Assembly (NCBI GenBank): GCA_963457665.1
Contig: OY735220.1
Span: 34,967,694-35,031,693 of the forward strand
Length of the DNA: 64,000 bases
Source of the DNA: Thysanoteuthis rhombus
Lineage: Eukaryota; Mollusca; Cephalopoda; Oegopsida; Thysanoteuthidae
Reading direction: 5' to 3'
Shown here: positions 21,001 to 50,887 of the stretch, piece by piece
Layout: each line of letters starts with the position of its first letter
Numbering within the stretch: position 1 is the stretch's first letter
The notes under the pieces: model-generated
The model's database searches: none
What the model saw: only the letters and a program-made list of their open reading frames with translations
Told to the model about the DNA's origin: nothing
Made by a program: the position numbers and the translations under genes

Positions 21001-22696
21001 ATTTCATCTGAAATTTACTTGAACGGATTCACTAGCAATTATTTTTGCTGTGAAATTACAGCATTGCTTTTCCCACGATTTTGCTGAAAACAGAAATAAC
21101 AGCGAAACTGAAGCTGGGGGGGGGGGGGTAATTTCAGGGGAGTTAACTCTTACCATCGTGGACACATGAGTGAATGGTTTGATTCCACACTGTGTTGTTT
21201 TGGCAGTACTGGGGGTATAATTCGCCATTGTCGCATTGGTAGAACATGCTCGAATCATTTGGATAAGGGGCATAAGACCCTGGAGTGCATTTGGTGCAGT
21301 TCTTGTCAGTGACGTTCACAATACAAGGGTTTTCCAAAACGAAGATATCTAGGGAAAGAGAGAGAAAAGAACAAATATGTGTACATTTCTGCTTTTGCTG
21401 ATGGACAGTTTAAATTCTACCACAAGGGCATCTTCATGGAGCGCACTGCATGAAACAAACTTTATGAAAATCGGATTGGGTAGTCCGATTGTAAATTAGG
21501 ATCCGTGTTACTTCAAGCACCTTATTTGGTAATTGTAATTCTTGGTCTAATGGGTGTAAATTAAGGTAGTTGAACGCACCATACAAATTGTAATTCTTGG
21601 TCTTATGGGTGTAAATTAAGGTAGTTGAACGCACCATACAAATTGTAATTCTTGGTCTTATGGGTGTAAATTAAGGTAGTCGAACACAGCATGCAAATGC
21701 CCTAAAAGTCATACAAAGGCTCCAGACGGTATAAACGTACAACGTATTGATCAGGTATTAACACAATGATAAATCTAAAAGCTGTTAATTAATGCAGCTT
21801 TTATGAACTTTCTTTCTTTCTTTGTTATTTGACTTCCAGTTTCCGAAGCGTGAAGACGGTCTCGACAACATGCAAGGTCTAATCAGGGTCATCAGATTAT
21901 GTCAAAAGGGAAGATAATCTTAGCTTTATCTCAGAGACTTACTCAACATGTGTGCACTACGGGTGCACTTGTACGAATATAAATCTGAATGATAAGCTGA
22001 AGGTCGTAGTGCTTGATCAGCACTGCTGGGTGGGGGGCATGTTAAAACAACAGTTTTGTTTTTAAATCCTTGAAACAGTTCTATCAAAAACAATTATAGT
22101 ACTGTAAGATCTAATTCTAAGAAAAAAATAAATCCCTTAGAACATCTTTTGGTTGTCAGTTATTCGTGAATAATTAATTTATATAGCATGAATAAAGTTG
22201 ATTAATAAACAGAAACAAAAATATTCTATAGGTAAGATCTTTAGTTAGAATCCATCTTAAGACAGAAAAAAATTTCTATACTAATAAAAGAAAGAGAATT
22301 TTCAACGACATCTTCAGTGCTTCAAGTTAAAAAGCTTTCCGTATGTTATTACGAAACGGATATATGATCCGACAAAATTATTATAGATTGCATTATATTG
22401 TATTGAAACTCTTTCTTTAATTGATCTCCGTCCTTACACGGATAACGTATCATTTCGCCCAGACAGCGCAAATCGAATAAACAATTGAAGAAAATGGGGC
22501 TGCAGCAGGAATCAATGCTAAGAGCAACGCTACGGTAAAGCGGCTGCCCAATCGGTCGCAGGTTCGATTCCTGCTGCAGCCCCATTTTCTTTGATTGGTT
22601 ATTCTATTTATTTTGTCTAGGCCAAATGATATCTTATGCATGTAATACCGGGACATCATTTCGAGTAAGAGTTTCAATACAATATAATGCAATTAC

Positions 22697-22761
<65 letters not shown>

Positions 22762-22816
22762 TGCATTATATTGTATTGAAACTCTCACTCAAAATGATCT
22801 CCCGGTGTTATATATA

Positions 22817-22889
<73 letters not shown>

Positions 22890-23248
22890 TGTTTAATTCA
22901 AAATACTTATCGTTTGTGCTCACGTGATATATTACGTGACATTATTTTATTATTATTATTATTTATTTTAAAAAATGGTCTCATATGTATATTGCGAAGA
23001 CTCATACTCTGTGGATGGAATAGTTGTCTTTTTTTTCCCTCCAGCGCTTCTCTGGGTTCATTCCTTGAGTTTGGTATGTGTATGTTTTCTCAGTCGGGTT
23101 CGAAAATAGAACAATAAAACCTAGAGAACTATTTATGCATTCTGAATAGAATTTCACCTGACGAATGCGGACGGCTTTTAAGCCGTTCGCATGAAACTAA
23201 TAATCGTTGCGAAATAAATTTCTATTCAACTTGTATTACTATCATTTT

Positions 23249-23325
<77 letters not shown>

Positions 23326-28902: not shown

Positions 28903-29478
28903 GTACAGGTGAACTTCAGGTAAACGAAAGTCATGTGCAATCGTCACATCGAGAATAAGAACATAACAGTCAAGATAGAAGATGCAAAACTGAGGAGAGT
29001 AGACGACTACATCAACCAATCAAAATGAAACCCATAAAAGAAGAAGAAATCAAGTGGAGAATCACCCTAGGATGGCAAGCCTTTACCAGAGCAAGCTGAA
29101 TTTTCAAAAACCAGACGATCCCAATAATCCTAAAAAGAAGGGTATACAACCAATGCATTCTCCCGATAGTCACTTACGGAGCTGAAACATGGAACCTAAC
29201 CAAGAGACAGACCTGCAAACTGAGAGGTATGCAACGTGCGCATGAGAGAATCATGCTCAACATCACATGGAGAGACCACAAGACAGCACAGTGTATCAGG
29301 AAGAAAACGGGAGTCCGAGACGTCATAAAATCTATTAAAAAACTTAAATGGCAATGGGCTGGTCATGTTGCAAGAATGGCAGACAACAGATGGACATCAC
29401 GACTCACAACATGAATCCCCAAAGATCACATGCGAAACTGAGGCCGACAAAATACAAGATTGGGAGATGAACTGAAAT
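28903..29478 (+). mobile_element. RTE-like LINE, reverse transcriptase C-terminal half
   Basis: Starts CGTACAGGTGAACTTCAGG (VHMNFS equivalent), continues [71 protein letters not shown], and stops at AGATGAACTGAAATTC. The sequence that ends other copies (GGCGAATCCTGGGGAAGG and the TGA tail) is missing. It abuts the inverted half that follows. Confidence 0.8.
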
Positions 29479-30077
29479 TCATGTGTACGCCGACTGTTTT
29501 GCTTTCTTCATTTAGTCCATCTTGCATTAGTTGGAGGTCGTGTAGGTCCTCTGCGAAAAGGACGACGCCGTCTGCAAATCTGTGGTTGCTTAGATATTCT
29601 CCGTCTATTTTGATTCCTCTATTCTCCCGGTTCAGCTTATGGAAGATCATCCCGAGGTAGGCTATGAAGAGTTTGGGTGAGCTGGTATCACCTTGTCTTA
29701 CCCTTTTTTTGGAGCTGGAAGGGTTCAAAATCTTTATGTGGCCTGATAAAGGAGTTGCTGTGATTGTATATATGTTGCAGTACTTCGAATTATACGGGGT
29801 GTACACATTGTAGAGTGATGGCCTTCATGACCATGAGAATTCCTACAGAGTTGAATACCTCTTGAAGTCTATACATGCTATAGCGAGCGGCATTTTATAT
29901 TCTGCTGCATTCTCTTTCAGCTGATCTATTGAATGGAGATGGTTCATGGTCGAGTAGCTTCTTCTAAATCCAGCCTGTTCCCGTGGTTGTTTTTCATCTA
30001 GTGTTTTAGTGATCCGGTTGGTGATGACTTTTGTGAAAAGTCTATTGATGCAGTTGAGTGGGCTTATAGGCCTTACT
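29473..30077 (-). mobile_element. RTE-like LINE, reverse transcriptase core, inverted
   Basis: Minus strand gives NCINRLFTKVITNRITKTLD, EQAGFRRSYSTMNHLHSIDQ, ACIDFKR (motif A region), then after a frameshift and stop, VRQGDTSSPKLF (motif B) and HRFADGVVLFAE (motif C). Motif C has ADG where active enzymes have ADD, so it is dead. It ends at the same element position at which the plus-strand half begins. Confidence 0.85.
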
Positions 30078-50620: not shown

Positions 50621-50887
50621 GATAAGGATATGAGATTATAGGTTACTTTAAATTCATTTCACAACAAGAAGTTTCTTGTGAACGGCTACAAGCAGTCCAC
50701 ATTTGACAGGTGAAATTCAATTCTGTAGTTATTATGACTATCCCCAGTTTGAGAACAATACATCAAAATTTTTTGACTAAAAAATAAAGAGTCTGTATGT
50801 GAGTATATATATATATATACATACACACACGCACAGACTCTTTCTCTTCATGTATACATATATAGACTTTCTCTGTTTATATATATT

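Follow-up and report, generated by a model that had tools for sequence, protein, structure and literature searches.

A hammerhead-like motif in Thysanoteuthis rhombus appears to belong to the dispersed 3' end of a probable Penelope-like retroelement

The motif and its surroundings

The window analysed here is a stretch of 64,000 nucleotides from the genome of Thysanoteuthis rhombus (contig OY735220.1, positions 34,967,694 to 35,031,693). On its + strand it carries a hammerhead-like motif that ends close to a (TA)n array, and a relative of this motif lies on the - strand. The features discussed below are the following (R1 is the family model defined in the next section).

23144..23219, + strand: hammerhead-like motif, 3'-terminal part of a truncated retroelement copy (family model, letters)
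23144-23151 / 23220-23227, + strand: outer stem I arm GAATAGAA / TTCTATTC, in which eight bases pair
23152-23157 / 23209-23214, + strand: stem I TTTCAC / GCGAAA, with one A.C mismatch
23158-23164, + strand: core CTGACGA (letters)
23165-23176 / 23181-23192, + strand: stem II, 12 pairs including one G.U
23193-23196, + strand: core GAAA (letters)
23197..23208, + strand: helix III, loop and cleavage-site region ATC/GTT, in which 3 nt are inserted compared with the family
23206-23208, + strand: GTT at the cleavage position (letters)
23215-23219, + strand: stem I bulge TAAAT (letters)
23220..23253, + strand: tail of the retroelement copy, aligned with the family tail and including the copy-specific outer arm 23220-23227
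23254..23321, no strand: (TA)n array after the element end (letters)
50652..50720, - strand: second hammerhead copy, core mutated to CTGTCAA (R1, 80.8 bits, E 1.3e-14)

The motif had been folded by hand as a type I hammerhead at 23144-23227 on the + strand, next to (TA)n, and all the parts named (CTGACGA, GAAA, a two-pair helix III, GTT and a bulged stem I) were found again in the letters, as was the adjoining array. Stem II is likewise present, although its length had been given as 11 bp and we count 12 pairs. The predicted cleavage after 23208 is retained in the register of the covariance family model, whereas a MAFFT alignment places the site after 23205 with the insertion inside stem I. 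The 3-nt insertion thus blurs the cleavage site and, depending on the register chosen, a pair is broken either in stem I or in helix III. The window copy itself fails a strict hammerhead descriptor.

The homology of the copy on the - strand, as judged from blastn and the letters, has 50758 as its 5' limit and continues on the 3' side up to a (TA)n array. The window holds this retroelement end twice, and the original prediction overlooked the second copy.

Other features of this DNA deserve mention in their own right. A tRNA-like B box, GGTTCGATTCCTGC, lies at 22561-22574 within 22496-22589, possibly a tRNA-derived SINE; ARAGORN reported no tRNA at 22300-22800. A 126-aa open frame at 29426-29806 on the - strand resembles, by eye, a fragment of a LINE reverse transcriptase. 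Elsewhere in the genome, the haemocyanin domain PF14830 has 52 matches, including nine of equal score with a spacing of about 2.2 kb at C25:56607734-56625492, near other haemocyanin matches; this array could be an expanded haemocyanin gene.

A dispersed family with a hammerhead consensus

The window motif is one of many dispersed copies of a retroelement 3' end, a context that the original prediction missed. The genome contains 61 exact occurrences of a 17-mer that spans stem I, the core and the first bases of stem II, and none of its reversed control. A DNA search of the 2.73-Gb genome with positions 23100-23260 gave 142 candidates, 40 of which were scored, and 38 of the 39 scored matches outside the window start at 23139-23149, where the motif starts. 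Removal of the window and of four near-identical duplicates on contig C33 left 35 copies, which together with the window make up a 36-row alignment (A1). Thirty of the 35 copies (five were left out for indels or ragged ends) form the alignment A2, from which the family model R1 was built with the window excluded; R1 matches the window copy at 23147-23219 with 72.8 bits (E 6.8e-13). The duplicates belong to five near-identical matches about 46 kb apart at C33:41201116-41385851, a pattern that suggests a tandem segmental duplication.

The A1 consensus (35 copies plus window) reads TTGAATTTCAC-CTGACGA-ATGCGGACTGCTTTTAGCCGTTCGCAA-GAAAC-TAATA-GTC-GTGAAATAAAT. Its heart is TTTCAC-CTGACGA-stem II-GAAAC-TAATA-GTC-GTGAAA, in which three stems join at the core, the molecule ends in stem I and GTC occupies the cleavage site. 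The elements CUGANGA, GAAA and UH all lie at the three-way junction. Stem I comprises 7 pairs (ATTTCAC/GTGAAAT), stem II is interrupted (7 + 2 pairs) and helix III has 2 pairs. Judged by its letters, it comes closer to a clean type I hammerhead than the window copy does. Two features are unusual: a C at core position 7 (34 of 36 rows) and an unpaired A.A at positions 10.1/11.1 (29 of 36 rows). Helix III and its loop, ACUAAUAGU, are self-complementary except at the centre, and this sequence is found unchanged in 13 of the 35 copies.

All checked core bases are kept in 25 of the 36 rows; in 12 rows helix III also retains both its pairs, stem I at least 6 of its 7 and stem II at least 5 of 7. In the genome loci scanned, the strict descriptor recovers five distinct family copies (10 matches before duplicates were merged), while first-order Markov sequence yields 1 match in 3,512,400 strand-bases. 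Mean likeness is 0.969 over the 10 core columns against 0.892 over the 49 other non-CpG columns, a comparison to be read in the light of the copies having been picked by similarity. A dispersed repeat with a cleaner consensus and matches to the strict descriptor provides stronger evidence than folding.

The carrier element

Four long copies have about 0.75-1.0 kb in common, ending in the hammerhead. In longer copies, decayed reading-frame pieces are followed by non-coding DNA (about 0.9 kb), after which come the hammerhead and a short tail, in many cases with (TA)n behind it. At L069 and L072, pieces such as NRRRRSITQWFNPPFNEIVRSNIGKTFLAPVDKHF and DEIGQYRDDG lie upstream on the same strand; we take these two to be signatures of Penelope-like elements (PLEs), and presumed PLE motifs occur in the reading-frame pieces of L069, L072, L075 and L077. 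Searches of Pfam, PHROGs and PDB gave no support for a reverse transcriptase or GIY-YIG domain in the pieces. The same order is found at L064, where a LINE is inserted between piece and hammerhead, and, by coordinates only, at C8:50.49 Mb. The LINE in L064 (1194-3616), decayed and Dong/R4-like in appearance, as far as we can judge, was considered as the carrier of the hammerhead and rejected as a later insertion on account of its (TAA)n end and terminal repeat (303 bp at both ends, 93% alike).

The family is dispersed, with variable 5' ends, and the copies end in AT-rich DNA: a run of at least (TA)5 lies no more than 110 nt further on in 24 of the 36 copies, against 8.4% of 1000 random places in the analysed loci. 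Two R1 matches lie less than 5 kb apart in six of 37 distinct places (L005, L053, L058, L069, L072 and L073), and all six pairs are head-to-head; a same-strand pair was found in none of the 37. At L005 (1431-1575), two head-to-head hammerheads are separated by only 7 bases and form a long palindrome. Head-to-head ends, 5' truncation and AT-rich targets are together consistent with the architecture of PLEs, and head-to-head is described as the commonest inverted arrangement in the passages on rotifer Penelopes in PMC3846280. From the motifs and the architecture, we infer that the carrier is a PLE.

A search of the genome with a 66-aa reading-frame piece (150 matches scored of 1850 candidates) led to four loci, L074-L077, that belong to a better-kept group. 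Three of them (L074, L075 and L077) have a CTGATGA-GGCCC hammerhead downstream on the strand of the reading frame; L076 has no such hammerhead. The one in L074 is complete, with a stem I of 6 pairs; that in L075 gives way to (TA)n with its stem I still unclosed, and L075 has another hammerhead, inverted, upstream; that in L077 has a stem I mismatch and sits at the end of the locus. Like the family hammerheads, these follow a related reading frame on its own strand, and in L074 and L075 (TA)n comes next; unlike them, they have a CTGATGA core, a four-pair stem II and a longer helix III. The second stem I pair is G-C here and A-U in the family, a two-sided change seen in a single comparison. A type I hammerhead ancestry of the window motif is supported by the family consensus and by these related elements, whose textbook-like hammerhead follows the reading frame. 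A single genome carries hammerheads of two designs, both next to related reading frames of retroelements.

Folding, covariation and covariance models

The region 23138-23232 folds markedly better than shuffled sequence on the + strand (z -6.2) and almost equally well on the - strand (z -5.9), so that folding by itself cannot single out a + strand RNA. For the window copy, a fold that sequesters the core (-32.3 kcal/mol) is 7.2 kcal/mol better than the hand-made fold (-25.1 kcal/mol). The best fold of the consensus pairs the core GAC with GUC (-18.3 kcal/mol), against -13.7 kcal/mol when drawn as a hammerhead and -15.5 kcal/mol for the best fold with the core unpaired. With U at core position 7 this trap persists (-16.8 against -13.7 kcal/mol), and C7 therefore contributes only about 1.5 kcal/mol. 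The L074 hammerhead is almost free of such a trap (-14.0 against -13.6 kcal/mol).

With two strands, a double hammerhead of the consensus sharing helices I and III reaches -37.6 kcal/mol, compared with -27.4 kcal/mol for two monomer hammerheads (-31.0 with the best open-core fold) and a nearly equal -36.6 kcal/mol for two trapped monomers. At -42.1 kcal/mol, the most stable pairing of the two strands is another duplex. Since the computed energies leave out the hammerhead tertiary core, dimer energetics can serve as a plausibility argument only.

The original prediction had named two outcomes that would speak against a hammerhead, silence of the covariance models and stem changes among genomic copies that are not compensatory, and both were observed. 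At gathering score, Rfam has no family in the window; at E up to 10, six matches around the site include no hammerhead, nor do the 150 of 159 matches listed for 20 of 43 genome loci. Over the whole genome RF00163 has at least one match above its cut-off, elsewhere (73 of 299,496 candidates scored). Among family copies, 85.3% of stem cells are paired against 85.7% in shuffles, and pairs changed on both sides number 4 against 3.9, hence no covariation. Both tests are weak here. At gathering score Rfam also misses the textbook-like L074-type hammerheads of the same genome, and its silence on the window accordingly says little; copies of dead insertions drift freely, so that absent covariation neither supports nor refutes the assignment. 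More generally, covariation among dead transposon copies and Rfam silence make poor tests for a ribozyme of a mobile element.

Proposed explanation

The reading that we favour, with a probability of about 0.8, is that the stretch from 23144 to (TA)n represents a Penelope-like retroelement reduced by 5' truncation to its 3' end, with AT-rich simple repeats at or beside its insertion site. The element RNA would have carried a minimal type I hammerhead just ahead of its tail. In active master copies it would most likely have cleaved behind GUC. Two hammerheads would preferably have acted together, in tandem or paired transcripts, with a long helix III formed between their ACUAAUAGU strands, and cutting would have trimmed or separated the element transcripts. 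The window copy would have inherited the motif passively and then acquired the 3-nt insertion and the mismatch, leaving it inactive or slow. Catalysis, use of the dimer and a role in transcript processing are what we infer from this arrangement. The near-palindromic ACUAAUAGU would suit the dimeric cleavage cited for PLE hammerheads.

Several observations count against this explanation: the negative Pfam, PHROGs and PDB searches, the lack of covariation, the consensus fold with GAC and GUC paired, the other duplex as best two-strand fold and the A.A at 10.1/11.1. The same applies to the Anolis PLE, which, in the available text of PMC11167929, inserted in vitro without needing cleavage and gave no reads ending at the site.

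A stricter version would make the hammerhead depend on dimerization, the monomer being trapped by GAC/GUC pairing until two copies meet and ACUAAUAGU opens an active double hammerhead. Cutting would then report tandem or multiple element RNAs. This version, which is weakened by the persistence of the trap with U7 and by the better competing duplex, strikes us as unlikely.

Alternative readings

The conserved feature could instead be a mere imperfect terminal hairpin used for reverse transcription or priming, its core being coincidental or dead in the masters. Such a hairpin is indeed the best single-strand consensus fold, with GAC and GUC paired; moreover, the two strands fold about equally well, the copies show no covariation and, from what is given in PMC11167929, element RNA may serve uncut. 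Yet every core position of a hammerhead is in place with the stems abutting the core, matches to the strict descriptor seldom turn up in Markov sequence, and related elements possess, behind their reading frame, a hammerhead whose stems are very different in sequence. The greater likeness of the core columns points the same way, with the reservation on similarity made above. On balance we regard a mere hairpin as improbable.

It had further been proposed that the window copy is a complete, fast hammerhead with a loop contact, which would cut RNA antisense to the neighbouring gene. All its core bases are unaltered, and the family model agrees with the originally proposed register. Against this, stem I contains the A.C mismatch, the helix III loop is enlarged and the non-hammerhead fold is better by the margin given above. 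A fast hammerhead would be expected to show a conserved stem I bulge with a matching loop II, and the outer arm that closes the bulge is unconserved. The claim that the stem I strands pair beyond the bulge does hold for the window, where eight bases pair; this pairing is copy-specific and not a feature of the family. Over 36 copies the best run in the outer arm averages 4.81; when strands of different copies are matched, the value is 4.65 (sd 0.13). The observed mean is equalled or exceeded in 45 of 300 shuffles, and runs of at least 8 occur in 37 of 1260 cross-copy pairings. The outer arm was therefore rejected as a family trait. In addition, loop II lies behind a stem of 12 pairs, far longer than in contact-forming hammerheads. 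The description as complete and fast is thus not upheld; an active window copy seems very improbable to us, and the copy is probably a weak or dead relic.

Least credible of all, and rejected, is a metazoan retrozyme, i.e., a short non-autonomous tandem repeat spreading via circular RNA, for despite the type I hammerhead, the many AT-rich copies and the retrozymes reported from a mussel in PMC7229834, the direct tandems of 150-450 bp expected of a retrozyme are lacking, none of the 37 distinct places having two R1 matches on one strand, and copies extend about 0.9 kb upstream and on into reading-frame pieces.

Comparison with known systems

It is already published that PLEs contain hammerheads, that these are proposed to act as dimers and that mussels have hammerhead-bearing PLEs. 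PLEs are described as bearing minimal type I hammerheads (in the pertinent sections of PMC7761336 and PMC6155905), which may cleave as dimers and whose role is called unknown in that part of PMC7761336. For the giant squid genome, 235 Rfam Hammerhead_1 matches are reported in PMC6962438. Among the matches listed in searches of the open full-text literature there is no paper on the variant found here, which would add a dispersed and probably molluscan hammerhead lineage overlooked by curated models.

The hammerheads of newt and axolotl share with the family a weak helix III with a palindromic loop and work better as dimers, but are located in 330-350 bp tandem repeats (same part of PMC7229834). 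In PAc of Anolis, going by the available text of PMC11167929, the hammerhead lies at the element junction, insertions finish with a tail at AT-rich DNA and an ATG opens stem II, as in the family consensus; in the latter, the ATG frame closes after 19 codons and no long reading frame starts there. The closest likeness is to the minimal type I hammerheads of PLEs (Cervera and de la Pena 2014; Lunse et al. 2017), as far as the accessible descriptions go. The layout, the very short helix III, the absence of an evident loop contact, the retroelement with head-to-head ends at AT-rich sites and the proposed dimeric cleavage are all shared, whereas the squid family differs in the C at core position 7 and A.A at 10.1/11.1, in its stem II, with 7 + 2 consensus pairs and 12 pairs in the window, and in the tail of about 50 nt that precedes (TA)n.
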